From Artocarpus heterophyllus (taxonomy: Eukaryota; Streptophyta; Magnoliopsida; Rosales; Moraceae): a stretch of 64,000 nt of DNA. Location: contig CM046327.1 of assembly GCA_025403435.1 (NCBI GenBank), positions 12,826,218 to 12,890,217 of the forward strand. The letters run 5' to 3'. The translations under genes were made by a program, and so were the position numbers. Within the stretch, counting starts at the first letter, position 1. Each line of letters begins with the position of its first letter. Positions 14,408-60,110 of this stretch are shown here, piece by piece. The notes below the pieces were generated by a model that did not search any database, was not told the DNA's origin, and was given only the letters and a program-made list of their open reading frames with translations.

Positions 14408-14454
14408 GTTTTTAATTTTTTAAATGGTTTTATTTATAGATTTTGGTTACGTAA

Positions 14455-15640
14455 ATGTTTATGTGATTTGAATTAAGTTATGTAATTATGTATAAATGTT
14501 GATAAATTTATAAAAATGTTGAAAATTTTGAGTAATATGGAATGTGGTTGTATTTGGATTGGTTTATGTTTTTTGTTGGTATTGGACTTGTTGTGTTTTT
14601 TTGTTGTTATGATGGTAAAAATGTTGAATTAGATGTTGTTGTGAAGGTTTTAATTAAATTGGATGTTTTTTATATTGTTGTAATTGTTGTTGTTATGGTA
14701 AAAATGTAGAATTGTAATGTTGGTGAATTTTTTTTTACTTATATAAGTTAGTTAGAATTGTAACTTTTATTATTGTAATGTTGTTAGTTGATTAAATTGT
14801 TTTACTTCATAAGGTAGTTGTTGTTCTTAGTTAGTTTATAAGGTGTTTATAAGTTGGTCAAATTTCAAATTAAGTTAGGTCTTATAATCTTTAAATTATT
14901 AAAAAATAATTTAATTCCTAAAAAAATTTAAGTTATAACAATATGTTATATGATTTAAGAAGATTAAAATTAAGAATTAATTAATTAATTAAAGTATTTA
15001 TATGATTCAAAATAAAAAATAGGGATATTATTTGATTAAAATAATATGGAATGTTTATGTGGTTTGAATTAGTTATGTGATTATGTATAAATGTTGAAAA
15101 ATTTTGTAAAAATGTTGAAAAATTTGAGTAATATGGAATGTGATTATATTTGGATTGGTTTATGTTTTTTGTTGGGCATTGGATTGATTATTTTTTTGTT
15201 GTTGTGATAGTAAAAACATTAAATTAGATGTTGTTGTGATGGTTATAATTGAATTGGATGTTTTTTAATGTTGTTGTCATGGTAAAAATGTAGAATTGTA
15301 ATGTTGGCGAATTTTTTTTACTTATATAACTTAGTTAGAATTGTAATTTCTATTATTGTAATCTTGTTAGTTGATTAAATTGTTTCACTTTATAAGTTAG
15401 TTGTTGTTCTTAGTTAGTTTATAAGTTATTTATAAGTTGGTCAAATTTTAAATTAAGTTAGTTCTTATAATATTTAAATTATAAAAAAATAATTTGATTC
15501 CTCAAAAAGTAATTTAATTTATAACAATATGTTATATGATTTAAAAAGATTAAAATTAAGAATTAATTAATTAATTAAATTATTTTACCTGATTTAAAAT
15601 AAAAATATGGATATTATTTGACTAAAAAATATTAAAATAA
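14455..15640. repeat. tandem duplication, two units of about 596 bp
   Basis: A unit beginning atgtttatgt recurs after 596 bp: 14455-15050 and 15051 to about 15640. Both copies share long colinear phrases, for example 'gagtaatatggaatgtg', 'ttggattggtttatg' and 'gttatatgatttaa', with small indels and substitutions. The duplication lies inside the presumed intron or spacer of the CACTA element and is AT-rich and non-coding. Confidence 0.8.
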
Positions 15641-27064: not shown

Positions 27065-27635
27065 TGTGATGACCCGCCTACGTGGTCATTACTTAACTTA
27101 AACATAATCGTAATTTAACATACTTTAATATAAAGTACTGAAATTACGGAATAAATTTTTCCCTCAAATGGATTCTTAACATATAACCTTAAAGGAATAA
27201 AAATCTTTTATCAAAACTTAATTCCATAAAGGAAATAATGACTATTTCCCTAAACTTACTTTCGAAAAACCCAATATAATAACATTAATTTCGTAAAGTG
27301 GTAACAACGTAATTGTAATCATTATGATTTTGTAACAACATAATTGTAATCATTATGATTAAACAAAATCATAATGCTTACAATTACGTTGTTACCACTT
27401 TACGAAATTAATGTTATTATATCGGGTTTTCCAAAAGTAAGTTTGGGGAAATAGTCATTATTTCCTTTATGGAATTAAGTTTTGATAAAAGATTTTTATT
27501 CCTTTAAAGGTTATATCTTAAGAATCCATTTGAGAGAAATATTTTATTCCGTAATGTTTAGCACTTTATATTAAAGTATGTTAACATTACGATTATGTGT
27601 AAGTTAAGTAACGGCCACATAGGCAGGTCGTCACA
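27065..27635. repeat. long palindrome, two arms of about 270 bp
   Basis: Arms at 27065-27330 and about 27365-27635 are nearly perfect reverse complements with a few substitutions. The short apex contains a 30-bp partial duplication (gtaacaac...cattatgatt twice). Each arm is the first about 270 bp of a family-B LTR. Transcription across it would give a long hairpin RNA suited to Dicer processing; this is inferred. Confidence 0.85.
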
Positions 27636-29534
27636 TAACCGCCGGTCAATGTCGGTCAACGACCGATCAACGTTAGTCAACAGTGACTTTGGAATTTTGT
27701 GATCCAGACCTTCGATCGATGATCTGATACTGCCCTCTGACTCATTTCGATGCTTTGAACGCTATGGTGCCCTCCGTCCGAGCTAATTCCACTCTGATAA
27801 AAATCATCTAATATCAACTGCACGTGGATCAAGGTGATTCAAACTACAATAACAGAGTCCAGAATGACATTTTCAATAATGTATGATCTCCATGAAGCAT
27901 TCCTAGCCATTCATGGTCGCTCGAGGAGCACTGTAGAGGATGTTTCGTATACTGTAAATATAGCGAGGTACAACTAGACCCGATTAGCTCGGTGTCCAAG
28001 TAAGTAGGAATCTCGCCTACAGTATGATTAGTTTTAAATAAAATGTTTTAAATGTGTTCATAAAAAGTTATGAAAATGTATGAACGGTGAGTTGTTACAC
28101 TGTGTATGTTATGATGTGTTGTTATGTTATGATAATTTGAATTATTATGTCATGATGTGTCATGTCATGTGTTGGTATGGTCATGTAAAGTGATGAACAC
28201 AGTATGAATATACAATATATTTGCAATAATAATGTTTAAAGTATGTTTGCATTTTATTAATACATAAAGTTTTACGGATTAAGTTATAGGTTCAAAATTG
28301 CATTTGTTATGCAATAAGTTTTAGAGTACAAGTTATGATTTGCAATTGAGTTTGCATATAATGTGATAGCATTTAATATGCTTACTAAAACTAAAAAGAA
28401 GGTAAAACAAATATAAAAAGAAAGTGTCATATCAGCCTCCTTGTTGTGAGGTACTTAAAGTAAAGATAAAGTTATGACCTCGGTGTTCGATGGTCTCAAG
28501 TCTTCCACAAGGGAAGCATCTTAAGTCTTTCACAAGGGAAGCATCATGTTTATGATCTTATGATTAATGATGTTGGTACAAACACTAGAGTAAGATAAGG
28601 AAAGTTAAGGAACAAAGATAAAAGTTAAAGTAAGAAATGAATGTTCGTAAGATACTCATAAATGAATAATCATAAATGGAATCATGCATATTGATTATGC
28701 TTGTATTGCTTGTCACGAAATCTTTATGTGTTATATTTATGAAAAGCATTTTGAGGACTGTTTTATGTTAAATGTTTATGAAAACATTTTTTACGTTTTT
28801 AAGAAAAGGTTTTCGAAGGACGTTTTATGAAAAAAACTTAAGAAATGTTTTATGAAAAATGTTTTAAAAGAAAGGTTTTTATGAGAAAAGTTTGAAAAAC
28901 GTTTATGGAATACATTTTAAGGAAAAGGGTTTTTATGAGAAAACTTTGAAAAACATTTATGGAATACATTTTAAGGAAAAAGGTTTTTATGAGAAAAGTT
29001 TTAAAGCATGTTTAAATGATTTGTGAGACTAAGTTTGAACTTACTGAGCAAAAGCTTATTTAAAGTTCCTTCATGTTGCAGGTAGTCCTACGGGCAACCA
29101 GTAGGGCATGTTTGAAGAGCTTGATGCTACGGAGGGTAAGTGTAAAGATTTGGGTATGGATACCACTATAATATGTTTTTGCTGCTATTCAAAGAAAAGG
29201 TTCTCTCACTATTTGATTTAAAGTTTTCAAAGTTTTAAGAAAATCAAAGTTTTAAGAAATGTTTTCAAAATTTTAAGAAATATTTTATCTAATTACAAAG
29301 TTAATGTTTCTTATTAAGTTTTAAGAAACAATTTGAAATGGTTTTAAAGTCAATTGTTGAGCAATGTCTCAACTTAGATTACGACAGAAGTCGCAACAGT
29401 TTTTAAGAATGTTTTAAAAGATGTGAAAGGAAAAAAAATTATACAGTACTTTTCTTACTAAGTAAGTAAGATTAATGTTTAAGAAACGATGTTTAAGAAA
29501 AAAAAGTGACTACCCAAAAAGACGAGTCGTCACA
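27065..29534 (-). mobile_element. chimeric insertion with two inverted LTR 5' ends, TSD TATGC
   Basis: The left end reads TGTGATGACCCGCC. The right end, reverse-complemented, reads TGTGACGACTCGTC. Both are the 5' start of the solo-LTR family seen at 17694 and 36901, in opposite orientations. The unit is flanked by the 5-bp direct duplication TATGC at 27060-27064 and 29535-29539, so it entered as one integrase event. It consists of a 571-bp palindrome made of two family-B LTR starts (27065-27635), then about 1.9 kb of a family-A LTR in minus orientation (27636-29534) running from LTR start to the GC-rich gttgacc region. No LTR 3' terminus is present. This is not a normal solo LTR. Confidence 0.7.
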
Positions 29535-34340: not shown

Positions 34341-35292
34341 TCAAAAGGTGGTTTTTCTACTACTCTATGTAGATAACATTCTGCTCATTGGCAATGACGT
34401 TGGGGCATTGTCATCAGTCAAATTATGGTTGACCAAGTAGTTTAACATGAAGGACTTGGGTGAGGCTAATTTTGTTCTCGGTATCCAAATCTTTCGGGAT
34501 AGGAAGAACAAAATGATGGCTTTGTCACAGGCTGGCTGCATAGATAAAATTCTTATGAGGTTTGCAATGCCGGATTCTAAGAAAGGTGGGCAACCATCTA
34601 GGTGTGGAATTACTCTTTCTAAGAAAGACTCTCCAAAGTCTTATGAAGAAAGAGAATACATGAAGAAGGTGCCTTATGCTTCAGCAATGGGTAGTCTTAT
34701 GTATGCCATGCTTTGCACATGACTGGATATTAGTTATGCGGTCGGGATTGTAAGTCAGTTTCAGGCGGATCTAGGACCGAACCATTGGGTTGCGGTAAAG
34801 TATATTTTTAAGTACCTGAGAAGGACTCGATGGCATATGCTTATGTATTCGGGTGAGGACTTGACTCCTCTAGGATACACTGACTCAGATTTTCAATCAT
34901 GTCTGGATTCTAGAAAGTCAACTTCAGGTTTTGTGTTTACTCTTGGCGGCGATGACATCAGTTGGAGAAGTGTGAAGCAAGATTGCACTTTGGATTCAAT
35001 GATAGAGGCCGAGTATGTGGCAGCTAGTGATGCTTCGAAAGAAGCAGTATGGCTTCGTAAGTTCCTTAGGGATCTTAAGATAGTTTCTGGTATGGATAAG
35101 GAGGTATTATTGTACTGTGATAACAGTGCGGTGGTAGCTAATGCTAAGGAACCAAGATTTCACAAGAAGAGTAAGCATGTTGATCATAAGTATCATGTGA
35201 TAAAGGACTTCGTTGAGGGTAGGCATGTCATGGTGATCCATTTACGAAGACACTTACTGGGAGAGTCTTTGAAAGGCATGTGGAAGCTATAG
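34341..35292 (+). pseudogene. Ty1/Copia pol fragment: RT C-terminal part and RNase H
   Basis: It starts inside the reverse transcriptase at the catalytic strand, read as LLLYVDNILLIGND; the family YVDD is changed to YVDN here, so a catalytic Asp is lost. It continues with FNMKDLGEANFVLGIQI and SAMGSLMYAM. The RNase H part at 34837-35292 reads YTDSDFQSCLDSRKSTSGF, EAEYVAASDASKEAVWL and LYCDNSAVVANAKEPRFH. Stop codons at 34438 and 34723 and a frameshift before the C-terminus show decay. Gag, protease, integrase and the 5' LTR are missing; the 5' end is joined to a foreign LTR fragment. The 3' LTR follows directly. Confidence 0.85.
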
Positions 35293-36900: not shown

Positions 36901-39900
36901 TGTAACGACCCACCCTTACGTGGCCGTTACTTAACTTAAACATGCTCATAAACTTAAACTTACTTACAAATAAGGTAGATAAATTTGGGATAATTTTTTT
37001 TTCCAACATATATATGGATTCTTACTGAGGAATCCTTAACATGAAACCTTAAAGGAAGTAATAACTATTTTTCAAATCTTACTAACAAACGAATTCTTAT
37101 TGATAAAGAATTCTTAACATATAACCTTAAAAGATATAATAATCATTTCTCAAAACTTCATTGCATAAACCTAACGTAATATATAAAATTCTCAAACGTG
37201 ATAATAACGTAATAATAAGAATTACGTCTTAACATAGTTATAATTTCTAAAAGTATGATCCTTGACATAATTCATAACATTAATCTCTTGAAACATAACC
37301 GTAGTAATTTTCTTGAATTTTTCCTTTTTAACATAAGAGTAATTATTTAGCAACTATTACTTTAAAGACATTTCTCAATTTAAATACAACTATTCTCAAG
37401 GTAATTTTAAATTAAATAATAAATAAAATCTCATTTAAATGCTCTTTAAAACTTTATTAGCAATTATTTATATATTTTACTTATAATTTTAACATCTTAA
37501 AAATAACATTGTATTCTCTTAAAAGTTAACCTTTTTAAACTTAAAAAAACATAATTTCTTACAACTTAAACTTTTAAGCTTAAGTTACTAATTTCTTAAA
37601 GCTTTTCTTTAAGACTTTCATAATAACTTCATAAAAACATATCCATAACTTCATTTCTTAACTTAATGTAAAACTCCAATAATCCTTTGCAATTCCAGAT
37701 AAACTTATAATTTTCTTTCCTATAAATTTCGTGCATTTGTTGCATCGTTTATTGCAACATCTTTAAACTTTGAAATCCTCTGAACCAAGGTTGCGTAATC
37801 ACAAGCTCGGTTTTTAAAACATAATTATGTAAATTATTTACTTATTCATATGCACATAATTTTCGTAAAGTGTAAGCATACGAAATTTCGTAAAATAAAA
37901 CATGCATAAATTCGTAAAATGATAATGCAGAAATATTACATTGCGTGAGCGGTATCCATTCCCATCTTCACCATTCGTCCGCCGCTCACCACTGCCCATC
38001 AAGTGTCGTTGACAGGTTTTTCTTACCTACAGCATGAACATACTTAAATGATCTTTCGCTCAGCAAGTAGGAAATTAACCTAGCAAAACATAATTAAAAA
38101 TCATTTTAATAAAAATATGCATGAGCATTTTATGCTTGCTTATCAACTTGATTTATGCTTAATTATTTAAGCTGTAACTTATCTTCTTACTTTGGGCCCG
38201 AGTGATTGTACCGGTTGCGCGCGAGTCTTGGGAAGTTAGGGTTTGCGAGGTCCCAACGACACCAAGATCATTCATTACTTTAACATGGAGCCTCCCCGTG
38301 GGTCGGGAGGTTGGTACGACACCCTTAACTTGTCTTATAAGTTTCACTTGTCTTATTGTGTGTATGCAGTATGACTTATCACTACATAACATCACAATTT
38401 CGTAATTCATGAATCGTAAATCATAATCATACATGAATCATAAATCATTTTCATACTTGACTTGAAGGTGATTAAACAATATAATTTAAATATTGCATAC
38501 ATCACATATTAATCATATCATCATCATCATCATAGCATTTCACATCATTTCATAACATAGCATATCACATCATAACTTATAACAGTGTAATAAATCACTG
38601 ATCATGTATTTTCATAAATTTTATGAAAATATTTAAAATTAATCTATTTTTAAAACTATTCATACTGTAGGCGAGATTCCTACTTACCTGGACTCTAAGC
38701 TGTGCGGGTCCAATTGCATCTCGTTGCATCCACAGTCTACGCTGCATCCTCAGCAGTGCTCCTCGGACCACTATGGATGGCTAGGAATGATCCATAGAGA
38801 TTTATTATTATTGAAAACATCATTCTGGACTCCGATACTGCAGTCTGAGTCGCCTCGATCTGCGTGCAGTTGGTACCAAATGATTTTCATCGGAGTGGAA
38901 TTAGCTCGAACGGAGATCACCATCGCGTTCAGAGCATCGAAACGAGTCGGGAGGCGGTCTCAGATCATCGATCGGAGGTCCGGATCACAAAAACCCAAAG
39001 TGGTGTTGACCGGCGGTTGACCGACGGCGATTGGCTCCGTTGGGGGCTGAGCTCGAGCCTACCCCCCCTAAGTCGACCCTTTTGAGTCCAATGGTGGTGT
39101 CAATTTCACCCAATTCGGCCTCTAACCATGCGGATCGAAGCCTGACGACGGCGGAAAAAATCGAGGCTCCGATCTTATATCTCCGGCGGTGGTAGCTCCA
39201 AATTAGCTTGGGGGTTTTGTTCCCCATGGTGGTCTGAGCATGTTGGTGGCGGTGGTGCACCACACCATTGCGTAGAACGGTGGCCCGAAGCTCCTCACAG
39301 CGGCGCACAAAGGCGGAGGCCGATCGTGGTCCTCCGGTGAAGTTACCCTGAAATTGGTTAGGGGATTAGCTTATACGTGATCCTCTGAGTCTTTTCCCTC
39401 AATCAATTTGGGGCCATGGGGCCAGGAACGGTGGCAACGGTGGTTGTTGCGGCGGTGGACGGCGTCGGTCTTCAAACTCCGGCAGGCGGCGGCTGTGGCG
39501 TGAAATTGGAAGGTGCTTCTCACTCCTCGTCGCCGTCTGAGTCGAACGGTGGCGGCGGTGTCGATCACCGTCACCGGAGGCGGCGGGATCGAGGGTGGTG
39601 CAATGGCGGCAAGAAGCGACTCCGACGAGGCTTCTTCGGCCAAAATCGAGGGGCATCACCTGCTGCATTTTGTTCTACTCATTGAGCTGAGTCTATAGAC
39701 ACCAAGATCGTGTCGATCGGTGCTCGGACGGCGAAGAAATCACGTCAAAAAAGTACTGTGTTTTCGCGGCTTCAACCGGCGCGTGTGGCCTCCTCCGGCA
39801 GTGTTTTGGGCTGCTCGGCACACCGTTGGACTCAGCTCGACGAGAGCTTCCCATTGGTGTGGGAGGTGTCGAAAATGGAGGCCGGATTCTTGGACTGAGT

Positions 39901-42094: not shown

Positions 42095-44766
42095 CCTTGT
42101 TCAAGTAGGCTCAAGCCAATTCAGCTTGCTCATGCCATGACTTTGCAAACTTGAATGCAGCTTGACTCTTGCCTTCATAGCTTGTGACAAGTGCAAGAGG
42201 CATCGTTGGTTGTTGCCCCATGATCACCTCAAAGGGACTCTTGTTTGTTGCCTCACTCTGTTGAAGATTGTAAGAGAATTGGGCCACATCAAGCAACTTT
42301 TCCCAATCTCATTGTTTAGCACTCATATAGTGCCTCAAGTATAACTCAAGGAGTGCATTAATGCACTCTGTTTGGCGTTTACTTTGGGGGAAGATTGTAG
42401 AAAAGTTTAAGTCTGAACCAAGTAGCTTGAAATGCTATGTCCAAAACCTTATGTGAAGCGAGGATCCCAATAGCTCATAATGTTTAAAGGCACTCCCCAA
42501 AGCTTCACCACATGGCATAGGAACAACCGTGCTGTTTTTCAACAGTATAATCAGCTGGTGTGGGAATGAAGGTAGCATACTTGCTAAACCGATCAACTAT
42601 CACAATAATGTTTCCATACCCTTCTGACTTAGGCAAGGAAGTGATGAAGTCCATGGAAACACTTTCCCCTGGCCTTTCTATGATTGTCAAGGGTTCAAGC
42701 AACCCACCTAGTGCTTGTTGTTCAATCTTGTCTTATTGGCATGCAAGACAGGTCCTTACATAGGTCTCCACTTCATTCCACATTTGTGGCCAATGGTAAG
42801 TTGTCTTCAAAATAGCAAGAATGTGCTTCATACCTAGGTGACTTGCCCACTTTGAATCATGACACTCCTTTATCAGCTCCCTCTAAAGATTTCCTCACTT
42901 TGGTACATTAAGTCGGTGTCCTTTTGTATAGAGCAAGTCATGTGCTAGCCAGAAACATCTCATCTTACCCTCTTCTACAAGGGTAGTAATGTTTCTTGTA
43001 AGGGGATCTTGTTGTAGTCCTTCCTTGATATGATTAAACAAGGGGCTATCAAAACGGTTGATAGATGCCAACTCTACTTTGCAGCATAGAACATCTACCA
43101 TATCATTTGCTTTTCTCAGCCTATAATCTATGCTCTAATCAAATTCCATAAGAAAGTCTTGCCACCAAGCTTGCTTTGGACTCAATTTTTTTTTGATTTG
43201 AAAGTAGCTAGTAGCAACATTATCAGTCATATGACAAACTTGGAGCCCAATAGGTAGTGTTGCCAAACCCTTAAATAATGGATGATTGTTGTCATCTCTT
43301 TCTCTTAGAGGTATAGCATCGTTCTGTGTTGTTAAGATTTTGGCTCTCATAAGCAATAGGATGACCATCTTGCATAAGCACACCACTAATAGAGAAGTCA
43401 AGACATCGGTGTGGACTTTATGAGGCATAGAGTGGTCGGGCAGGCTAAGAACTAGCTCCTCGTAAATAGCCTTCCTTAAGTCTTCAAGGGCATGTTGGGA
43501 TTCTGTACTCCACTCCTAAGTCCAGTTCTTCTTAAAGAGATATGTCAAAGGAACCACTCTTGCTGAGTAGTCCTTGATGAAGCGACAATAGTAGTTCACA
43601 AGTCCAAGAAAGGACCTTAACTCACACACTTTTATGGGTGGTTTCCAATCTTGTATATCTTGCACCTTTCTAACTTCCATCATGAGCTTTCCATCCTTTA
43701 TCTTATGCCCTAAGAACATCACTTCTTCTTGGGCAAAGGAGCATTTTTCCTTCTTAATATATAGCTCATTTTCTTTTAGGACTTAGAACACTTTTCTCAA
43801 GTGTTGCAAATGTTCATCCAAAGTTTGGCTATATATCACAATATCATCCAAATTTACTACTATAAATTGATCAAGATAAGGATGGAAAAGCTTATTCATC
43901 AAGCCGCAAAAGGTTGTCGGTGCATTGGTAAGTCTGAAAGACATGACCAAGAATTTTTAAGAGCCATACCTTATGACGCACGTCATCTTGGGCTCATCAC
44001 CTTCAATGATTCGCACCTGATAGTACCCAAAACGAAGATCCAACTTGGAGAAGTACCAAGCATGGCCAAATTGATCAAAGAGATCTGCTATTAAGGGAAT
44101 AGGATATTCGTTCTCTAAGGTGACTTTGTTAAGAGCCCTATTATTAATGCGCATGCAAATAGAATTATCTTTCTGTTTCTGAAAAAGGACTGGTGCACCA
44201 TAAGGGACTTTGGAAGGTTGAATGAACTTAGCATCTATCAAATCCTTTAGTTGCTTCCTTAGCTCTGCCAATTCCAGTGGTGCCATCCTATATGGGCTCA
44301 TGGTTGGTGGCTTTGTTCTCAGCTCCAACTTAATTTGATGATCCACCTCTCGCCTTGGTGGCAATTGTTTAGGCAACTCCTTGGGCATGACATCCTTGAA
44401 CTCATCAAGAACATCTCGTACCTCCTTCGGCATGGTGCATTGAGGAGATGATTCTTCATCGTTGTACTCCTTGAGAATAGTTAAGTAGCTATCTTCCTCC
44501 TTCCTCAAGCCCTTCTTGAATTGGATAGCAGATAACATCTTAGACTTAGTCTTGGTAAACTTAACAGTAGGTGCCATGCAAGTCTTTTCATCGTCCAATA
44601 TACACATGGTGTTGACAAATGGAACTGGGAAGGCCTTCACTTGGTCAAGAAACTCTACACCAAGGACAACTTTGAAGTCATGCATGGGTACCACAGATAA
44701 ATCTAAATGACCTACCCATGCCCCAAAGGTGGTCTTTACGCCCCAGGCTATGCCTTGAATAGGCTT
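42095..44766 (-). pseudogene. Ty3/Gypsy pol: protease end, RT, RNase H, integrase (broken)
   Basis: On the minus strand, from 44766 downward, lie the protease-to-RT linker (VVLGVEFLDQVKAF), the RT with KFIQPSKVPYGAPVLF, NNRALNKVTLENEYPIP and FSKLDLRFGYYQVRI, a catalytic LDDIVIY near 43842-43862 (family YLDD read here as NLDD), and [14 protein letters not shown]. An RNase H region follows, then an integrase core with SMDFITSLPKSEGYGN and VDRFSKYATFIPTP, and FSYNLQQSEATNKSPFE at 42100-42290. Frameshifts and stops separate the blocks. The C-terminal part past 42095 is lost at the Copia LTR junction. This is a decayed Gypsy element, probably chromovirus-like. Confidence 0.85.
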
Positions 44767-46744
44767 TGTGACACCCGTTATTCTCCTAACGGGTATTGAG
44801 GTAATTAAATTAATTTTTAATGTATAAAAAAAAAAAATTGCTTCATTTAAATTTATTTTATAATATTTATTTTTATCTATTTTTAAATTTTCTAAAATTC
44901 TCCTATATTTATTTAGTATGATTACTAAAAAGCCTTAGAACTTCTAATAAATCTCAAAAATGTCATATTGGCATTATGTGTGTTAAAGTCTTTAGATGAG
45001 ACATAAGGATATCTTTTCCAACTACTCTTGACCCTCATTTTCTTTATTTCCTCCGTGACATGCTTCAACATGTCTCCTCTATAATTGTTTCTATCACTTC
45101 TCTTCAAAGATTTCATCTTTTCTTCCTTTCTCTTCCACGGTTCCCACACTCTTCTTCTCATTTCTTTGCTGAAGCAAAATACTTAGAGAACTTCTTCAAG
45201 GCAGCCATAAAAATCAGCCACCATCACCTCCATTTGAGCAAGAATTTCAGTCATACCGAAGTAAAGGAACCTGTTTTGAAGCCATTTCAAGCTTCCAACT
45301 AACCATAATCCGAGGTTAGAATCTTATGAACAAATTTAGTCTTTCATTTATAAATTTTCTTTTATACTAAAGGATTATTCAAATTTGCGTTCTTAAACCT
45401 AAGTATATGTTTGTTGCTATTTTGGAGCATATGTATGAAGTCTAAGTGTATATGCCCTAGACAGAAAATTTATATTGTTAAACTTTATAATACCTCTATG
45501 GGCAGTGGTTATTTCTTGAAATTCTAAGATTAAATTAAAATAAATTTTATGAATGTAGTTGTATGTTGTGCTTTAGTTTTAATTGTCCTTATGCACGCCT
45601 TAGGATCAAGGGAGTATGGAGCTAACGTTAATTGATTCCAGGATTAAGAGACTGTTGATAAGCTTAAAAGGTAGGGATTCTATTACTCATCTTTTGTGAG
45701 GTTTTTATAGAATTAAAATTGATTGTTTTGCCGCAATATATATATATCTATGTTGAACTGATATTATATGTGTATCACATATGAAACTATGACATGGACT
45801 CGTCTTGTATTGTACGGCGAGGAACATAATGAATTGACACATGTTATAAATTGAGAAGCATGGTTAGGAAAATTAACTCTATTAATAATGATTTAATATA
45901 GAGAAATTGTGAGACATGAAAAGGGCGACGGTTACGTCCTTGGGCATGAATACCCTAAAAGGTAAAGTAGGGGGAAGGCGATGACGCTTCCTTGGGTTGA
46001 AAGTCCCAGAACACACTGTACAGGAATCGATTTGGTGAGGACTCGGGGCTTGATGTCCCCTCACCGGAACACCCTTGGAATGTTTATAGGGTGATCAAGT
46101 GCGCCCATTTGGGTTTCGATGAGTTGAGTGATACTCAATTTAACATGGATACCTAGGAACAATGATGATTTGTAATATTTGTATAAATGTGTAATTATGA
46201 CACTTGGTAACGATTAACTACGGTATCCATAAGATGTGATCATAATAAACCTCATAATCTGGAATGTGATGTAACTTACTAACCATGCAGGTTTTAATGT
46301 GGTAATGATAAAAACCTAAAGGTGAGTAATGGCTTTCTCTACTGAGCATAGTGTTGCTCATACCCTTATGTTTATATCTTTTCAGGACTCACTAAGTGTA
46401 AGGTGGCTACGAGAAATATAGTTGAGGAAGTGATGTAGCTATATTACATTGGGACTGCTTCAATCGTTGAGAATGTTCTTCATGATAATGTAAGCATCAA
46501 TTGTTACTTTCTGTGACTGTATTACAATGTGTTGAGGGTTAAAATGATGATGACAACAGTTTATATTATTAAATTTAAGGTGCTACATTAAAACTGTGGT
46601 TTATTTGTCGTTTATATTTTTATTTTTGAGTTGAGAGTTTTCATTTAAGTCCCGGGCAAATTTTAATCTTTAAGGTTTTACTTTTATTATTTATTTTTAT
46701 TTTATCTCATTAAAAACTGTTAACCCCCATATAGGGGCGTTACA
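44767..46744 (+). repeat. left LTR of the cargo retrotransposon
   Basis: TGTGACACCCGTTATTCTCC to TATAGGGGCGTTACA, 1978 bp. It is identical in length to the right LTR and matches it throughout as far as I could compare by eye. One difference was noticed: C here at about 46021 against T at about 52158. The frames at 44925-45302 and 45882-46064 recur in the right LTR because the LTRs are copies; they are not called as genes. Confidence 0.9.
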
Positions 46745-46770
46745 GAATTTTTGGTATCAGAGCCTAGGTT
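46745..46770 (+). other. primer-binding site, initiator Met-tRNA type
   Basis: TGGTATCAGAGCC at about 46752-46764, eight bases after the left LTR end, is complementary to the 3' end of plant initiator methionine tRNA. It is the usual primer site for minus-strand synthesis in plant Gypsy and Copia elements. The match is full, so the element could still be primed. Confidence 0.85.
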
Positions 46771-48132
46771 CGGTTAACCTAGGGAGTGTAGCACCACTTT
46801 AAAAAATATATTTTTGAGATGGTTTTGAAGCTGAATTTTCATTGTCATCATCAAAATGAACCTTCACATTGATTTATACAGTCTAGAAGGATGTAACATG
46901 GAAAGGCCATAGAATGAAAATACTTATGGTTATATGAGTACAATAATTATATAGAAGGAAAGTATTAATAGTTATGAGGGAATGATAATTATATGGAATG
47001 AGTTTATAAGTAGAATGCTTATGAGAGATTCGTATAATATTAGGATCTATAAGCATATTTAATTCGTATAAACGATGAGAAATTCGTATAGATACGAGGA
47101 TTTAAGAGCCTTTTATCTCGTGAAAAACAATAAGAAATATAAGGCTTGATTTATTGATTTTAAAGTTTGACATAGATATGCCAAATTTTTCGTAATTGAT
47201 TCAAACCTAAGTAATGATTATGTGTGGATTCGATGGAGCACATAAGTGTCAATGTCTTTTCTTAAAAGTTCTATATATTTGAGGAATATGATATAAGTTG
47301 GGAATCATGGTATTGAATCTTGAGAGAGATAAATGTTAGATTTTTGGTCTGTTGAGACTGTGTAAAGTCTAGAATGCATGAATCTCAAAATTGGAATATT
47401 TCGTTACGTACATTGTATTTAAGTGTATCAGTGAATCTTTTGGTGACCTAAGGTTTTGTTATATGAGGAAATTATATATTGTATGAGTAGAATTGTGGGG
47501 ATTGTAGATGTTCTTAAATAGTAACATCAAGTGTCTTTGTTCGTTGATATGGTCTACGTTGAAAGACGTAAATCGTATTGATTTCAAGGTTAGTCACATT
47601 CTAAACCCTTGGTAGCAATGATGATGAATCCATTGATAGATGTTAAGTATTATGAATAACATATGGGTGTATGCATTGTTCAATAAGGTTTTGATTAAAA
47701 CAAAATTATTTGAGTTGCTGGATCATTCAGGAAGATCCTTGTTGTCGTTAAATTAGATTTGTTGTTTATAGTTAACTTTATCTATAGTGGGCTTTGAATT
47801 GGGTTTAAGATTCATACGAATTGGTTTTCAATTTTATGTTTGTTATTTAACTCGTTCCAGATGTGTTAAGGCCCAAAACAACCTGACCATTTTCAACTAA
47901 GAACATTTGGGCCTAGTTCAAATCTTAAATCAGTTTGATTCATACTGTCTCTCCCACGTGGTCTCTATACGTGTCATATACAGTGGTTTAATCATTGTTT
48001 ACAAATACGTTTACTGTGCATAGGAGCTTATTTCTCCGAGTTTACTTTTCCTCCAAAAGAAGAAGGAATTCTAGGATTCTGCAATTTACTATCTTAATTT
48101 TTCCTTTCTATTTACTCTTCTTTCATCTCATC
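46765..48132 (+). other. long untranslated leader of the cargo retrotransposon
   Basis: 1.37 kb between the primer site and the first ORF with no frame that resembles gag. It is AT-rich with several gtataa/atgag-type phrases. Chromovirus gag would normally start here, so the region is either a remnant leader with packaging signals or unrelated filler. No domain was recognised. Confidence 0.5.
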
Positions 48133-48654
48133 ATGGACCCAAAGTACCAACACTTGAGAAAGTATTTCCCATCACTCTCCCAAAAGATTCTCAGAAAGAA
48201 ATACAAGGCTAGAATTACTCGGTTGTGGATTCTTATGCGTTTTGGTATCCCTTGTGATGTGAGAATGTTAATAGAGGGGAAGATCCGTCCGAGTGACTTT
48301 AGTCAAGATGTCGGTTTACCAGGAACAGGTACCAGTCGTAGTGCAATGAAAAGAAGAGCTCGTGCCATCGTGGTCACTTGTAACAAATGTGGAAGACAAA
48401 ATTGTAACGGTAAATGTACTTCACCTGGTTATATGTCTACGAATAGAGAGGATAAAATAAGGTTTTGTAGGGATGGACTTTCAAAGGAGAACTTGGATAG
48501 CATCCATCCTCCTCTCCACGGTCACCCTAGTGGATATGTTCAAGGAGCTATTTTTAAACTCTGGCCTAAATTTTATACAGAAAGACAACGCCTCAGGAAT
48601 ATGGTATTTCTAGATCCTGTTTGCCAAGCCATAAGAAAACTGGATGGGGAATAA
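48133..48654 (+). CDS. cysteine-rich basic protein, resembles carla-like virus nucleic-acid-binding proteins
   Basis: An intact 173-aa ORF. The start chosen is ATG 48133 because it has A at -3 and G at +4; the frame is open further upstream without an earlier ATG. The N-terminus is basic (RKKYKARITRLW), followed by a hydrophobic stretch (WILMRFGIPCDVRML). Then comes an Arg/Lys cluster KRRARA (residues 73-78), and immediately after it C83-x2-C86-x4-C91-x3-C95 followed by SPGY (97-100). A basic cluster, a four-Cys finger and then a PG dipeptide is the layout of the small cysteine-rich nucleic-acid-binding proteins of carlaviruses and relatives (Viral_NABP family). In those viruses the proteins bind nucleic acid and modulate host silencing or transcription. 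The similarity is by motif and order only. It is also unlike the CCHC knuckle of retroviral Gag. Origin from an RNA virus is inferred, and it could alternatively be an unrelated plant zinc-binding protein. Confidence 0.7.
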   Translation: MDPKYQHLRKYFPSLSQKILRKKYKARITRLWILMRFGIPCDVRMLIEGKIRPSDFSQDVGLPGTGTSRSAMKRRARAIVVTCNKCGRQNCNGKCTSPGYMSTNREDKIRFCRDGLSKENLDSIHPPLHGHPSGYVQGAIFKLWPKFYTERQRLRNMVFLDPVCQAIRKLDGE

Positions 48655-49297
48655 GTCATCGCTCTATAAAGGTTATTTAGTCTTTACTTATTTGAAGCAG
48701 TTTTAGCTGATGTTCAACAGTTTGTGTTTTTCTTTTACTCAGAATATTTGCTTTTGTGTTTGAAATAATTGTGATTATTAGATTGATACAGTAAGTGTTA
48801 ATATCTTATTTAATTTATGATTTTCTTAAATATATATATAATAAAATATATTATCTTATCAGACACGTTACATACGGTACAGTAATATGTTTGAATTTTG
48901 AAAAGCTTATCCAGATATTTCAAGATTTGTGTCTCAAATTTCAAAAGTTCTACAGTATTTGTCGTTTATATTAAATTTCTAGACTTGGTGTATATTTGTC
49001 AAAAAGTCTACAGTTGTGTCATGAGGGTCTTCTGTCGAATTGTTCTCAATTGTCAAAAGTTATACAATTAGAGTCTAATCTTTTTCAAAAAGTGAATCAG
49101 ATTTTCTGTAAACTATCAATCACCTTATCTTACTTTCTTATCCGCACAAGATTTTGTTTAAATCTTTGGATTACTTTTTCATTACCTACTCGTCTATCTC
49201 TTTAGCCCTTTTTGTATATTTCTCATCTTTAAAATCTCATGTAGAACCCGAAGTCTAAGTGGAGCAGACATTAAGCAACCACTTCTATAAACCAAAT
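48655..49297 (+). other. spacer between the two cargo ORFs
   Basis: 643 bp of AT-rich DNA with no long frame that starts with ATG and shows a domain. A second ORF this far downstream would need splicing, a separate promoter or reinitiation for translation; no clear TATA box or splice pair could be fixed by eye. Confidence 0.5.
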
Positions 49298-49948
49298 ATG
49301 TCTACCTCCCAGTCCACGAAGAAAATAAAGAATGTCTGTGTCTTTTGTGGTTCCAGCCTTGGAAAAGATAAAGCTTATTTAGAAGCTGCAAATCACTTAG
49401 GGCAAGTCCTAGCACGCAAGAAGATTAACATAATCTATGGGGGTGGTAGTATAAAAATGATGGTAAATATGGCACTAGCAGCTAGGTCTAGCGACGCTAC
49501 TGATGTAAGAATTTGGCCTCATATTCCAGTTGAAGGAAACCTTTGTAAGGAAGCCATAGGTAAGGGAGAAGGAGTCAGGAGTATCCCTAATAATTTTAAA
49601 GACATAATCTATAATTCTGATGCTTTTATAGCATTACCTGGTGGTCTAGGTACTCTTGAGGAAATATTTATAGTTGCTTGTGGGCAATTGTTGGGCTTTT
49701 ATTCCAAACCTTTGGGACTGCTGAACGTAAAGGGTTTTTATGACGGTCTTTTGAAATTTCTAGATTACGCTGTGGAAGAAAACATCACTACAGAATCGGA
49801 GAGACAAATCTTTGTCACTGCTTCAACAGCTGAGGAATTGATAGATAAAATGCAAATCATACATCCAGAATCCGACACTGCAACATCCAAGCTTGAATGG
49901 GAAAGGGAAAGCCGGGAGCGGCCAATTGATTTGAATCTCCATCTGTAA
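49298..49948 (+). CDS. LOG-like protein (cytokinin riboside 5'-monophosphate phosphoribohydrolase family)
   Basis: An intact, intronless 216-aa ORF starting at ATG 49298 (A at -3); length matches ordinary LOG proteins. The Rossmann-like fold is recognisable: VCVFCGSS (13-20), YGGGS (47-51), DAFIALPGGLGTLEE (108-122), KPLGLLNVKGFYDGLL (137-152) and IFVTASTAEEL (171-181). LOG enzymes hydrolyse cytokinin nucleotides to free bases, and the PGGxGTxxE loop with Glu122 binds substrate. The spacing from GGGS to PGG equals the family spacing, but the segment that should read MHERKAEM is IPNNFKDI (96-103), so the catalytic Arg is Asn99. The GLMG after GGGS is also altered (KMMV). Activity is therefore doubtful. 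Plant LOG genes usually have several introns; their absence fits capture through RNA. The symbol is withheld because function is uncertain. Confidence 0.85.
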   Translation: MSTSQSTKKIKNVCVFCGSSLGKDKAYLEAANHLGQVLARKKINIIYGGGSIKMMVNMALAARSSDATDVRIWPHIPVEGNLCKEAIGKGEGVRSIPNNFKDIIYNSDAFIALPGGLGTLEEIFIVACGQLLGFYSKPLGLLNVKGFYDGLLKFLDYAVEENITTESERQIFVTASTAEELIDKMQIIHPESDTATSKLEWERESRERPIDLNLHL

Positions 49949-50087
49949 TCTTTTTGTTTTATCTTTGGCATGTAGGCATGTGTGTCCGTATTTCGTGTGT
50001 TACGAATAACCGTTTGCCTTGTATTCTGTGTTTCTTGTGGTACGTTGTTGTTCAATCTTTTAGATTCATTGAGCCTAATGCCGGGAT

Positions 50088-50230
50088 GGCTGGATACGGA
50101 GTACTTGATGCTCTCGAAACGCATCCTTCTTAAGGTCCGATCTTTTGTTTATCGATGTTTTTGTATCCTCTAAGCATGCATGATATGGATAGCTGGTATA
50201 CGGAGTGCCTTGTACTCTCGAAACGTATCC
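50088..50230 (+). repeat. duplicated 39-nt stem-loop downstream of the LOG-like ORF
   Basis: Two copies 104 bp apart: 50088-50126 (ggctggatacggagt...ctctcgaaacgcatcc) and 50192-50230 (gctggtatacggagt...actctcgaaacgtatcc). In each, the left part (ATACG-GAGT) can pair with the right part (ACTC-tcgaaa-CGTAT), giving a stem with an internal asymmetric tcgaaa bulge. The pairing is better in the second copy, and differences in the first weaken only the outer stem. They lie 140-280 nt after the LOG stop codon, probably in the transcript 3' region. Confidence 0.6.
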
Positions 50231-50903
50231 GTATCATGTTTGTAATGTGTAATATTCTGTTAATATTATGTGGAAGTACCAGAGTCAGTTACGGGGATAT
50301 TCCATATGAAATATGAATATATTATTTGGGTTGAATGTTTGTGTCATGAGGATAGCTGTTTAATGAAAAATATGTCGGGTTTGTCTGCAACTCTGAGATT
50401 CCGTTTAATATCTCTATGAATAAGTTTAATGTATGGTTTTGAATATAAGTGTTTGTGATATATGTTTTATGATTATGTTTTAGTTTATTAGTTGAGGTAT
50501 GAAATCAAATATATTTGACTTTTCCTTACTCAAAAAGGAAAAGGAACCTAAAGATGAAGTATATAAAATTTCTCTGACAATCTCCTTAAATGTGATTGTA
50601 AATCACAGTCCATGGACAATGAAGGACCGGAATCATGATATGGTCAATATGTATGCCTGATCAGATTCTTAGACTATTATACGGTGTTATAAGTTGAAAC
50701 TTGTCAGAAATACTCTTATTGAGGGATTTAGGAGTAAGATTTATTATGCAAGTAAATAAGTGGAAATACGATAACTTAAATTTGGAGGACAAACAACATT
50801 AACGGTTTAGACTCAGAATTGGAATCATAGTGGAATCATAATTTTTACTAGTATTGCTAGAATTGAAATTTCGAGGACGAAATTTCTTTAAGGGGGGTAG
50901 AGC
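50231..50903 (+). other. 3' internal region and polypurine tract of the cargo retrotransposon
   Basis: No coding seen. The last 45 bases read aaatttcgaggacgaaattt then ctttaaggggggtaga, directly before the right LTR at 50904. This pattern, with the G-rich polypurine tract at about 50890-50898, is the conserved 3' end of plant Tekay/Del chromoviruses and primes plus-strand synthesis. Confidence 0.75.
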
Positions 50904-52881
50904 TGTGACACCCGTTATTCTCCTAACGGGTATTGAGGTAATTAAATTAATTTTTAATGTATAAAAAAAAAAAATTGCTTCATTTAAATTTATTTTATAA
51001 TATTTATTTTTATCTATTTTTAAATTTTCTAAAATTCTCCTATATTTATTTAGTATGATTACTAAAAAGCCTTAGAACTTCTAATAAATCTCAAAAATGT
51101 CATATTGGCATTATGTGTGTTAAAGTCTTTAGATGAGACATAAGGATATCTTTTCCAACTACTCTTGACCCTCATTTTCTTTATTTCCTCCGTGACATGC
51201 TTCAACATGTCTCCTCTATAATTGTTTCTATCACTTCTCTTCAAAGATTTCATCTTTTCTTCCTTTCTCTTCCACGGTTCCCACACTCTTCTTCTCATTT
51301 CTTTGCTGAAGCAAAATACTTAGAGAACTTCTTCAAGGCAGCCATAAAAATCAGCCACCATCACCTCCATTTGAGCAAGAATTTCAGTCATACCGAAGTA
51401 AAGGAACCTGTTTTGAAGCCATTTCAAGCTTCCAACTAACCATAATCCGAGGTTAGAATCTTATGAACAAATTTAGTCTTTCATTTATAAATTTTCTTTT
51501 ATACTAAAGGATTATTCAAATTTGCGTTCTTAAACCTAAGTATATGTTTGTTGCTATTTTGGAGCATATGTATGAAGTCTAAGTGTATATGCCCTAGACA
51601 GAAAATTTATATTGTTAAACTTTATAATACCTCTATGGGCAGTGGTTATTTCTTGAAATTCTAAGATTAAATTAAAATAAATTTTATGAATGTAGTTGTA
51701 TGTTGTGCTTTAGTTTTAATTGTCCTTATGCACGCCTTAGGATCAAGGGAGTATGGAGCTAACGTTAATTGATTCCAGGATTAAGAGACTGTTGATAAGC
51801 TTAAAAGGTAGGGATTCTATTACTCATCTTTTGTGAGGTTTTTATAGAATTAAAATTGATTGTTTTGCCGCAATATATATATATCTATGTTGAACTGATA
51901 TTATATGTGTATCACATATGAAACTATGACATGGACTCGTCTTGTATTGTACGGCGAGGAACATAATGAATTGACACATGTTATAAATTGAGAAGCATGG
52001 TTAGGAAAATTAACTCTATTAATAATGATTTAATATAGAGAAATTGTGAGACATGAAAAGGGCGACGGTTACGTCCTTGGGCATGAATACCCTAAAAGGT
52101 AAAGTAGGGGGAAGGCGATGACGCTTCCTTGGGTTGAAAGTCCCAGAACACACTGTATAGGAATCGATTTGGTGAGGACTCGGGGCTTGATGTCCCCTCA
52201 CCGGAACACCCTTGGAATGTTTATAGGGTGATCAAGTGCGCCCATTTGGGTTTCGATGAGTTGAGTGATACTCAATTTAACATGGATACCTAGGAACAAT
52301 GATGATTTGTAATATTTGTATAAATGTGTAATTATGACACTTGGTAACGATTAACTACGGTATCCATAAGATGTGATCATAATAAACCTCATAATCTGGA
52401 ATGTGATGTAACTTACTAACCATGCAGGTTTTAATGTGGTAATGATAAAAACCTAAAGGTGAGTAATGGCTTTCTCTACTGAGCATAGTGTTGCTCATAC
52501 CCTTATGTTTATATCTTTTCAGGACTCACTAAGTGTAAGGTGGCTACGAGAAATATAGTTGAGGAAGTGATGTAGCTATATTACATTGGGACTGCTTCAA
52601 TCGTTGAGAATGTTCTTCATGATAATGTAAGCATCAATTGTTACTTTCTGTGACTGTATTACAATGTGTTGAGGGTTAAAATGATGATGACAACAGTTTA
52701 TATTATTAAATTTAAGGTGCTACATTAAAACTGTGGTTTATTTGTCGTTTATATTTTTATTTTTGAGTTGAGAGTTTTCATTTAAGTCCCGGGCAAATTT
52801 TAATCTTTAAGGTTTTACTTTTATTATTTATTTTTATTTTATCTCATTAAAAACTGTTAACCCCCATATAGGGGCGTTACA
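50904..52881 (+). repeat. right LTR of the cargo retrotransposon
   Basis: 1978 bp, TGTGACACCC to GGGGCGTTACA, matching the left LTR without any length difference. It is followed by the target duplication GGCTT, after which the old Gypsy protease sequence resumes. Confidence 0.9.
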
Positions 52882-54335
52882 GGCTTGGTCAATGAGTTGA
52901 CGACTTTGATGGAGCCCCCTCCTCTAACTACCTTAAGGGTTAACATTAGGGCTTCTTCAATAGAGATAAAGTTACAGGATGCACCTGTGTCGATCAAGGC
53001 CTTAGTGTCCTTCCCGTTGATGTTAGCATCCACGAATAACAATCCCTTGGCTTGACTCTTTGGACTACTTTAAATAATGTTCAAGAGTTGTATGGAGCTG
53101 AATGAGCACGCTCCTTATTACCTTTCGTCCCTTGCTCTTCAAAGAATGCAGTCATAACATTAAGGGCCTTTCTCTGAAGACAATAATGAATCCAATGAGG
53201 CTCGTCACATAAGAAGCAATTGTTTTTGGGTCTAGAATTGTCTTTACCTTTATTCTACTTCCTTTTATCCTTTTGCTTGGATGAGGCATGGTCCTTGACT
53301 CCCTCCTTGTGATGGTTCATCGAGTGGTCTCCCCCAACGTTGTCGGTGTTGCCTTTTTTCTCTTTGGACTTTGACTCCTTTTGGCTTAAGTAGTCGATCA
53401 AGCTTTCAACAACCGCAATAGCTATAGTGACGTCTTACACACCACGATGCCTAAGCTCTGTCTTTACCCATGGTTGTAGCCCATCCATAAAGAAGAAAAG
53501 GGAGTCCTTGTTGGACATATTCGGAATCTCTAGTATGAGATCTGTGAAATCCTTCACATAGTCTTGGATACTGCCTGATTGTTTAAGTCTTCGCAAGTGA
53601 CCACCTACCTCTTCCTCGGCATTCTCCGGATAGAATTGCCTTTTAAGTTCATTTTAAAAGCATCAAGGGAGGTGATGGTGCATGTACCTCTCCTGATGTC
53701 CTCTTGCCTTCTTTGCCACCATAACATGGTGGTGTCTGTGAGGTATAAAGTAGCAGATTGGATCTTGGCAGCATCCTCTACAATGCTTGTAAGAAAATTG
53801 TCTACCTCGTAAGCATTACATGTGCCCACAAAGCTCTAGGGTTTTGGCACATCAATCTTGTGTGCCTTTATGGTTGGTGTGGTTGGACCAAATGTAACCA
53901 CCCTCTTGCACAATGCAAGGTTGGCACATGTTTTTTCCAACTAGGCAAGCATACTATTAATCTCCCTTTGGTACATGTCTCAAACATGAGCCACCTCTGC
54001 CTAGAGCTTTTCCTAAAGCTCCCACATGTCCTTTCTTAAGGACTCTTTTAGCCTGCCAAGGGACTTACACACGGCCTAATGGAGTTCGGCATCCTCCACC
54101 TATAGACTGTCTAACCATTGGTCTATGTCCTCCATCTGTGTATCCCATGCACTCACGCTATCCTCCACCCGAGTTGAACGTGCATCAAAGCTAGAAATCA
54201 TGCCCTTGGACTTCCCCCGTGGCTTTGGTGTTGTGGGATCGAGTTGTAATTCACGAACTTGCTCTTGTTCCAATGTCTCCACATTTGTAGTGTTTGATCC
54301 TACACTTGCTCTTGTTTTTGTCATAGCTGAACCAA
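52882..54335 (-). pseudogene. Ty3/Gypsy gag and protease start (broken)
   Basis: Read on the minus strand from 54324, the gag start is MTKTRASVGSNTTNVETLEQ, eleven bases after the primer site. Downstream are a capsid-like segment at about 53829-53605 (DTTMLWWQRRQEDIRRGTC) and a zinc knuckle near 53234-53196, C-F-L-C-x3-H-x4-C, of the shortened CX2CX3HX4C kind used by some plant Gypsy elements. The protease block, 53042-52882, has the active-site sequence KALIDTGASCNFIS. Stops and frameshifts separate the blocks. The protease frame continues beyond the cargo-element insertion at 44766, and removing that insertion and one GGCTT restores a continuous alignment. Confidence 0.8.
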
Positions 54336-54348
54336 GGCTCTGATACCA
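54336..54348 (-). other. primer-binding site of the old Gypsy element
   Basis: On the minus strand, TGGTATCAGAGCC, complementary to initiator Met-tRNA, two bases from the LTR boundary. It fixes the element orientation as minus and the inner boundary of the right LTR at 54351. Confidence 0.8.
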
Positions 54349-58519: not shown

Positions 58520-60110
58520 TTATTAAAGAAAATGGATTTTTTCAATTACAAACACATAAATACAAATTTTTATGTAGAAAAAGAAGGCATCAAATTAGAC
58601 AACAGATTTGTAGTCCCTGTACAACAAAGACCTAATGTTTAAAATTTCATGCTCATATCAATGTTGAAGTTTTTCTCTCAATCTATGCTTATAAAATATT
58701 TATTCAAATATTTAACAAAAGGACCAAATAGAATCAGAGTAGTAATAGAAGATACTATATGTATAGATCAATTTACACAAACTATTTATCAAGAAGTAGA
58801 TGAAATTAAAAATTATATTAATTGTCATTATATAAGACCATATGAGGCTATGTGGAGGTTATGTAAATACCCAATACATCATAGAAATCTAGTTGTTCAA
58901 CGACTATCAATTCACTTATCACGTATGCAAAATATAACATTTCACTCAAATCAACAGCTTACTTATATAATAAAACAGCCAGGATTTCATAAAATAACTC
59001 TAACTAAATGGATGGAAACCAACAAGTTAAATATTGAAGCTAGAGAACTTACTTACATTGAACTTTCAACCAAATATGTTTGGAATAACAAATACAATAT
59101 TGGACTATTAGACAAACAGGACATACAATTAGACGAACTTTTTATATGCATCCCAGTTCTGGAGATCTATATTTCCTAAATTATTACTAAACTATCGAAA
59201 AGGTATAACAAGTTATGAATCCCTTGAAACGATTGATAATATAACATATTCAACAAATCAAGAAGCGTGTTTCGCATTAGGCTTATTAGGAAATGATAAA
59301 GAATAGGATGAATAAATATTAGAAGCTTCAGTTTGGTCAACATAAAGTCAGTTATGACAATTATTCATTATAATCTTATTATTTTGCAATGTCAATAATC
59401 CAATAAAATTATTCGAAAAACATTGAAAACTTATGATAGATGATATTTTTCACAAAATTAAAACTTTATTCAACAAACTAAATTTTCAAATACCTGAAAT
59501 GAAATTATATAATTATGTATTATACAAATTAGAAAAATTATTAAATCTAAATTCATCAAGTTTAACAAATTTTAATTTACCCCTTTCCATTAGATCATTA
59601 ATAAATGATCTAATAATAAACTTTTAAGAGAAGAACTTAATTACAATATAAATAAATTAAAAGACTAAAATACTATATTAGTACAAAATTTAAACACTAA
59701 ACAACAATATACTTATCAGCAAATTTTAAAATGGCATAATCATGAAAAAGACAATCTTTTTTTATTTATAGTCATGGAGGAATTGGGAAAACATATTTAT
59801 AAAATGCAATCATTACTAAAATAAGATCAAATAATGAAATTATTTTAGCTGTTGCATCTTCCAGAATAGCATCATTATTATTACCAAAACGTAGAAATGC
59901 ACATTCTTGATTTCAAATACCATTATCAATAGATAAATTTTCTACCTGTCATATTTAAAAAAGAACTCAATTAGCAAAATTAATAGAAAAAAAATCACTT
60001 ATATTATTGAATAAAGCACCTATGAATAATAAACATTGTTTTGAAGTAGTAGACAAAGCACTTCGAGATTTAAAAATAATTTAGAACAACTATTTGAAAG
60101 AATGATTGTT
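58520..60110 (+). pseudogene. Helitron Rep-helicase protein, 5'-truncated and broken
   Basis: Plus-strand readings match the region of Helitron transposases after the Rep domain: LDNRFVVPV near 58600, IKYLFKYLTKGPNR (58690-58735), YIRPYEAMWRL, IHHRNLVVQRLSIHL and ARELTYIELSTKYVW, then LLLNYRKGITSYESL and EACFALGLLGND around 59170-59300. The PIF1-type helicase starts after 59690 with Walker A HGGIGKTYL at 59773-59799. The Walker B equivalent reads LLNKAPMNNKHCFE, where the usual DE pair is NK. Frameshifts (for example after AHINVE near 58660) and stops are frequent. The HUH nuclease part that should precede was not found, so it cannot act. Confidence 0.8.

Follow-up and report, generated by a model that had tools for sequence, protein, structure and literature searches.

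A recently amplified, non-autonomous LTR retrotransposon family of Artocarpus heterophyllus with a carlavirus-type nucleic-acid-binding protein relative and a LOG-family protein

A 64,000-nucleotide stretch of the Artocarpus heterophyllus contig CM046327.1 (hereafter, the window) harbors a non-autonomous long terminal repeat (LTR) retrotransposon, with paired LTRs, a target-site duplication (TSD), a primer binding site and a polypurine tract, and with no gag-pol recognized by eye. Its interior encodes two proteins, ORF1 (open reading frame 1), a relative of the nucleic-acid-binding proteins (NABPs) of carlaviruses, and ORF2, a member of the LOG family. By searching for further copies in the same 985-Mb assembly, we found that the element belongs to a high-copy family that has amplified recently. 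The reading that we favor, at about even confidence, is that of a non-autonomous family whose two accessory proteins, a putative NABP-type suppressor and a LOG-derived protein, would keep the element expressed.

Architecture of the element

The features of the element are as follows:
44762..44766, no strand: left copy of the TSD, GGCTT
44767..46744, plus strand: 5' LTR, 1978 bp
46752..46764, plus strand: primer binding site TGGTATCAGAGCC, after the 5' LTR
48133..48654, plus strand: ORF1, 173 aa, homolog of the carlavirus NABP/cysteine-rich protein family
48379..48417, plus strand: CxxCxxxxCxxxC cluster within ORF1
49298..49948, plus strand: ORF2, 216 aa, LOG family, without the GGGxxGLMG loop and the M-x-x-R arginine
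49928..49945, plus strand: DLNLHL C-terminus of ORF2, an LxLxL sequence that is EAR-like (ERF-associated amphiphilic repression)
50890..50897, plus strand: polypurine tract AAGGGGGG, before the 3' LTR
50904..52881, plus strand: 3' LTR, 1978 bp
52882..52886, no strand: right copy of the TSD, GGCTT

The two LTRs differ at a single position (46021), and we take the TGGTATCAGAGCC primer site to be of the initiator-Met type. The 4.16-kb interior contains two ATG-initiated ORFs, 173 and 216 aa long. When its bases were shuffled singly 2000 times, the longest ATG ORF of the plus strand reached 146 aa at most (mean 61). The ORFs, at 41% and 40% GC, also stand apart from the rest of the element (28-34%). 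No gag or pol was recognized by eye among the 25 stop-to-stop frames of at least 45 aa in the interior, where the Pfam scan covered the two ORFs only. The original prediction for this stretch had placed the LTRs exactly and had rightly named the TSD, primer site and polypurine tract, and its picture of a young element with two intact ORFs, one of them LOG-related, and no recognized gag-pol holds.

A high-copy family

A search of the genome with ORF1 yielded 5822 candidates, the 150 best-scored of which, window included, all encode one and the same stop-free protein of 173 aa, a count that is a lower bound and biased, as only the best matches were scored. The LOG sequence was found at all 30 loci fetched from this list and is open over its full length in 28. 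The corresponding LTR search returned 2250 candidates, of which the 40 scored are all 99-100% identical and comprise the two of the window, 16 pairs and six singles. The 16 pairs were chosen regardless of their ORFs, the six partnerless matches being left out, and we refer to them as the LTR-picked copies. All 16 are flanked by 5-bp TSDs; their LTRs differ from each other at 0-6 bases (at none in nine copies); ORF1 is intact in all 16 and the LOG in 15. Their interiors measure 3.6-4.3 kb, similar to that of the window, so that gag-pol cannot fit in them (no separate search for it was made there).

Taken together, the genome-wide ORF1 matches and the LTR-picked copies lead us to reject a one-off gene capture; likewise, the recent swap of gag-pol for cargo in one element that had been envisaged gives way to a gene pair common to a large family and to diverged subfamilies. 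The call to look at sister copies was well placed: both ORFs are present in all 16 further copies, the LOG being broken in one, and neither an assembly join nor a general breakage of the ORFs was found.

The 16 copies L050-L065 differ from the window by 2-3% in the interior leader and tail, by 0.5-0.7% in the LTR, spacer and LOG, and by 1.0% on average in ORF1; they are mosaic copies, as from template switching.

The ORF1 family matches carlavirus nucleic-acid-binding proteins

As judged from profile matches, ORF1 is one of a family of plant proteins with similarity to the carlavirus NABPs (PF01623, PF05515; e.g., p12 of chrysanthemum virus B), the homology being apparent in Pfam at the level of the ORF1 family. 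A protein search recovered 15 relatives and a profile search 856 at E≤1, of which the best 120 were listed; named relatives among the matches listed come from Populus, Xanthoceras, Hibiscus, Acer, Rhamnella, and Orobanche. When 86 family members were scanned singly (E≤0.1), 82 matched Carla_C4 (best E 4e-8) and 79 Viral_NABP (best E 1e-8), and a curated Pfam cut-off was passed by seven of ten scanned relatives (48-60% identity) as well as by the protein of the contig L001 (see below). The CxxCxxxxCxxxC cluster is present in 102 of 124 homologs, 85 of 125 having been taken into our alignment (A2). In carlavirus NABPs a cysteine cluster comes after a basic stretch, an arrangement that ORF1 has as well; unlike them, the ORF1 family is 173-186 aa long and resides in plant chromosomes and LTR elements. 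The "cysteine-rich ORF" of the original prediction was incompletely described, being, by the profile matches of its family, a relative of carlavirus NABPs. The structure model of ORF1 is poor (pTM 0.33), and the best of eight matches in a viral structure library, a silencing suppressor of Helleborus mosaic virus, is weak (E 0.73, 26% identity) and only a hint. No ORF1 relatives turned up in the viral contigs searched, nor in the plasmids searched with P0008, the ORF1 of another family.

ORF2 retains the LOG fold and has probably lost catalysis

By sequence and by predicted structure, ORF2 has the LOG fold and the PGGxGTxxE motif. It matches Lysine_decarbox in Pfam (E 1e-21) and At2g37210 (PDB 2a33) by sequence (E 3e-43), and 2a33 is also the best structural match of its model, which is uncertain at residues 81-95. 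Missing from the window LOG are the GGGxxGLMG loop, found in 87 of 120 homologs, and the arginine of the following M-x-x-R, a LOG active-site residue seen in the displayed alignment rows. The same holds for all 15 intact LOGs of the LTR-picked copies as judged from their listed differences, of which L054 alone varies from the window inside the loop, while all 15 vary at the residue beside the place of the arginine. Given the loss of the loop and arginine, we reject an active cytokinin enzyme in the window subfamily, whose LOG is probably catalytically dead; the proposal that new copies would spread such an enzyme is unlikely because these motifs are missing. In a 36-row tree built from the window protein and 35 hand-picked homologs out of 120, the former groups with P0016 on a long branch.

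The C-terminal LxLxL, which resembles the EAR motif that recruits TOPLESS, is present in 88 of 120 LOG homologs (shuffle rate 0.0018), or 20 of 29 after thinning, with a basic pair just ahead of it in 83 of the 120; it is missing in the three named Musa LOGs. Forty-six of the 120 homologs entered our alignment (A3), and Populus LOG proteins are among the matches of the protein search. In viral contigs we found 17 LOG matches, all distant (25-59% identity over pieces).

The gene pair recurs in diverged subfamilies

At least three diverged subfamilies (L066-L075) hold the same gene pair in this one genome. A search with the LOG homolog P0069 gave 5853 candidates, of which 150 were scored and the 10 best fetched; at all 10 an ORF1 match lies upstream on the same strand, some being broken by stops or frameshifts. 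In subfamily A' (five loci) ORF1 is 92-96% similar to that of the window in the four loci with one long alignment and the LOG 67-69%, and the LTRs are partly alignable to those of the window (74-90%). The corresponding values are 68-75% (in the three loci with one alignment) and 61-63% in subfamily B (four loci), and 55% and 51% in subfamily C (one locus). An exact GGGxxGLMG is found in five of the eight loci with a covering frame (L066, L067, L068, L070, and L072), and L073-L075 have one difference each within the loop.

The pairing is borne out for subfamily C by the best 150 places of its ORF1 and the 150 LOG places scored with P0069, which form at least 78 pairs in which the LOG follows downstream within 4 kb and on the same strand (in 76 pairs within 1.3 kb), no other arrangements, and an expectation of 0.05. 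Many of the subfamily-C copies among the best 150 places have stops in ORF1, for which reason we regard this as an older group. With P0008, the best 150 places in the genome are at 51-54% identity, the top one being the subfamily-B locus L066. Weak evidence for pairing elsewhere comes from the ORF1 P0149 and the LOG P0067, which list the same largest-contig figure (8723), and from two proteins of Xanthoceras, the ORF1 P0147 and the tailless LOG P0017, which share a record size of 21,981,555.

Proposed origin of the pair in gypsy elements

Two loci place these genes downstream of typical retroelement ORFs. L001, a 3330-base contig, has an integrase ORF (rve, Integrase_H2C2) with ORF1 about 0.2 kb behind it; no LOG-sized ORF lies between ORF1 and a purine-rich motif some 250 bases past it, and searching the genome from which L001 comes for a LOG gave no match. 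The second locus, L076, spans 9 kb around a subfamily-C copy and contains in order a protease ORF (Asp_protease_2, E 2e-6), which we take to be a gag-protease, ORF1 and the LOG; there is no pol ORF between the protease ORF and the pair. As no LTR pair was found in the 9-kb stretch, we infer rather than observe that the three genes form one element. On the basis of ORF1 behind the integrase in L001 and of both ORFs behind the protease ORF in L076, we propose that both genes would have come as a pair from replication-competent gypsy elements, in which they were located behind pol.

By their motifs both loci look Athila-like to us, and Athila-like elements with a LOGL4-like ORF were reportedly described by Steinbauerova et al. 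in 2011. The window element itself departs from Athila, in that no gag-pol was recognized in it by eye and its primer site is TGGTATCAGAGCC rather than of the tRNA-Asp type that is a feature of Athila; the polypurine context of its family presumably resembles that of chromoviruses. The combination of an initiator-Met primer site and a chromovirus-like polypurine context suggests that the pair may have passed from one lineage to another. We reject a virus or plasmid as the present host of the pair, as no ORF1 relatives were found in the viral contigs and plasmids searched and viral LOG matches were distant.

The contig L001 is filed under a Nomurabacteria metagenome-assembled genome though bearing a gypsy integrase and a plant-type ORF1; it is most likely plant contamination in the public genome set.

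Comparison with known elements

Among non-autonomous LTR elements with host-like coding sequence, such as maize Bs1 and other gene-transducing elements, the window family differs in that its cargo is a pair common to diverged subfamilies, not a recently captured piece of a host gene. Large retrotransposon derivatives (LARDs) similarly lack gag-pol and are presumably mobilized in trans; they are non-coding by definition, unlike the present family with its two conserved ORFs.

A LOG ORF in gypsy elements is already known, and the original prediction, which was aware of no complete LOG-family ORF as cargo, needs correcting here: according to the portions of PMC9289625 available to us, gypsy consensus sequences from two species of Citrus, and under a looser filter from Populus trichocarpa, contain a YgdH/LOG domain; credit is given there to Steinbauerova et al. 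2011. These elements share with ours a LOG-family ORF inside an LTR retrotransposon; unlike in the window family, those portions describe no ORF1/NABP partner, LxLxL tail, high-copy form without gag-pol or loss of active-site motifs (PMC9289625). In the literature within our reach, which left out most subscription papers, we found no description of the LxLxL tail, of the ORF1 partner or of the two genes together. Gypsy elements of Phalaenopsis that encode an AlkB RNA demethylase, as covered in the same portions of PMC9289625, offer a parallel in the form of an RNA-related extra ORF that is also found in plant RNA viruses and is retained in a gypsy lineage; they differ in having gag-pol and in carrying another enzyme. 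Antisense extra ORFs, according to the available part of a review, are without similarity to viruses (PMC7264820).

Proposed function of the pair

For plant elements, evading small-RNA silencing is a necessity; to our knowledge, few of them carry a recognizable counter-defence gene. Under the favored reading, this high-copy and recently active family would depend on the gag and pol of another gypsy element, and its LTR transcript would encode two accessory proteins. The p12 protein of the carlavirus chrysanthemum virus B activates transcription in the nucleus and suppresses silencing in the cytoplasm, according to the part of PMC7588395 that we draw on. By analogy to p12, ORF1 would most likely lower small-RNA silencing of the LTR transcripts, and it might perhaps act in the nucleus too. 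ORF2, with catalytic motifs kept in some relatives, is probably a pseudo-enzyme in the window subfamily, whose remaining function would lie in the LOG fold and the LxLxL tail, plausibly docking TOPLESS-type co-repressors. Together, the two proteins would sustain expression of the element in dividing or meristem cells.

A broader formulation, to which we commit only tentatively, is that the pair might constitute a gypsy-owned mobile cassette of a suppressor and a co-repressor-docking LOG, with an anti-silencing and host-reprogramming role, that has moved across primer-site lineages and shares ancestry with RNA-virus suppressors. If true, the presence of a suppressor-like gene in both carlaviruses and LTR elements would give a concrete example of RNA viruses and retroelements exchanging genes. 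The intact frames and high copy number make the family testable, and the recurrent LxLxL tail raises the question of why the fold of a hormone enzyme is retained after loss of its active-site motifs.

Selection on the two genes and competing explanations

The distribution of variants shows ORF1 to be kept by purifying selection. Among full-length ORFs only, to which all our variant counts apply, the 17 ORF1 copies (window and LTR-picked) have 17 synonymous variants out of 30 and 13 others, i.e., a ratio of non-synonymous to synonymous polymorphism (pN/pS) of 0.16, the synonymous excess having p from 4e-5 to 2e-3 depending on the assumed neutral fraction. For the LOG, the 16 of these 17 copies that qualify have 12 synonymous and 11 other variants (pN/pS 0.29, p 0.001-0.02). 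Between the window and 10 related loci, the ratio of non-synonymous to synonymous substitution (dN/dS), the calculation of which had been suggested at the outset, is 0.10-0.26 for ORF1 and 0.26-0.54 for the LOG; for the LOG between subfamilies, the window copy left out, it is 0.15-0.21. With subfamily B as outgroup, the LOG has acquired 34 residue changes along the window branch and 12 along that of A' (17 ambiguous), and for ORF1 none falls on either branch (one ambiguous). Going by these comparisons, the LOG is kept open yet changed fast where the window subfamily arose.

Several observations weigh against the favored reading of an expression-sustaining pair. The window ORF1 itself scores under the Pfam cut-offs for PF01623 and PF05515. 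An autonomous partner bearing these LTRs did not come to light, the searches aimed at one having returned no answer. Constraint on the LOG appears weaker when the 30 ORF1-picked loci are considered, whose 28 intact LOGs have 16 synonymous to 28 other variants (ratio 0.41, p 0.02-0.22). Within A', two comparisons indicate weak constraint on both genes (ORF1 0.36 and 0.49; LOG 0.64 and 0.53), several A' loci have stops or frameshifts, and the tail is printed as DLNLSM in L070, L071, and L074, which is not a strict LxLxL. Moreover, synonymous distances to A' are unequal (ORF1 0.06-0.23, LOG 0.35-0.44), so that the pair has not always moved together, which suggests exchange or conversion between copies.

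The strongest competitor, which we hold to be rather improbable though not greatly so, is that the ORFs are a functionless passenger cassette inherited by a successful deletion derivative and intact only through youth. The 0-6 differences between the LTRs of the 16 copies are consistent with this, as are the loss of the active-site motifs and the excess of LOG changes on the window branch, the near-neutral proportion of LOG variants in the ORF1-picked copies, and the stops in ORF1 of many older subfamily-C copies. Speaking against it are the low dN/dS of ORF1 across synonymous distances of 0.06 to 2.5, the synonymous excess among its copies, and the identical protein in all 150 best-scoring copies, a set biased to the best.

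That an active LOG raises local cytokinin and drives cell division, and hence replication of the element, we judge unlikely: the exact loop in five of eight related loci and in 87 of 120 database homologs and the low LOG dN/dS between subfamilies without the window would fit such a cargo, but the window LOG and all 15 intact LTR-picked ones lack both loop and arginine. Far less probable still is a role of the LOG and ORF1 sequences as sources of small interfering RNA against host LOG genes rather than as proteins; high copy number is in keeping with it, but protein sequence is conserved beyond the DNA, and the ORF1-region DNA of the window and of subfamily C is about 66% alike. Finally, we dismiss an assembly join or contamination as having a negligible chance, for nothing was found in its favor and the same structure occurs at all 17 sites (window and 16 others) as independent copies, each with its own TSD (17 different 5-bp sequences).

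Other features of the window

Immediately left of the insertion lies a further feature:
43957..44694, minus strand: reverse-transcriptase-like ORF fragment (RVT_1 weak, E 0.018, below the curated cut-off)

We take this fragment to be gypsy-type. Together with a second occurrence of the element's primer-site sequence at 54337-54348 (minus strand) on the right, it points to an older minus-strand gypsy-type element that houses or adjoins the insertion. Elsewhere in the window, the ORFs at 58649-59179 and 34837-35292 look to us like Helitron and copia fragments, and neither has a Pfam match at E≤0.01. A self-complementary 0.57-kb stretch (27065-27635) and a repeat of some 0.5 kb that is dispersed in three copies of about 80% identity (19922-20462, 27639-28083, and 38599-39122) look like miniature inverted-repeat transposable elements (MITE-like). 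At 14454-15047 and 15050-15632, a segment of some 0.6 kb is duplicated in tandem, with 89% identity.

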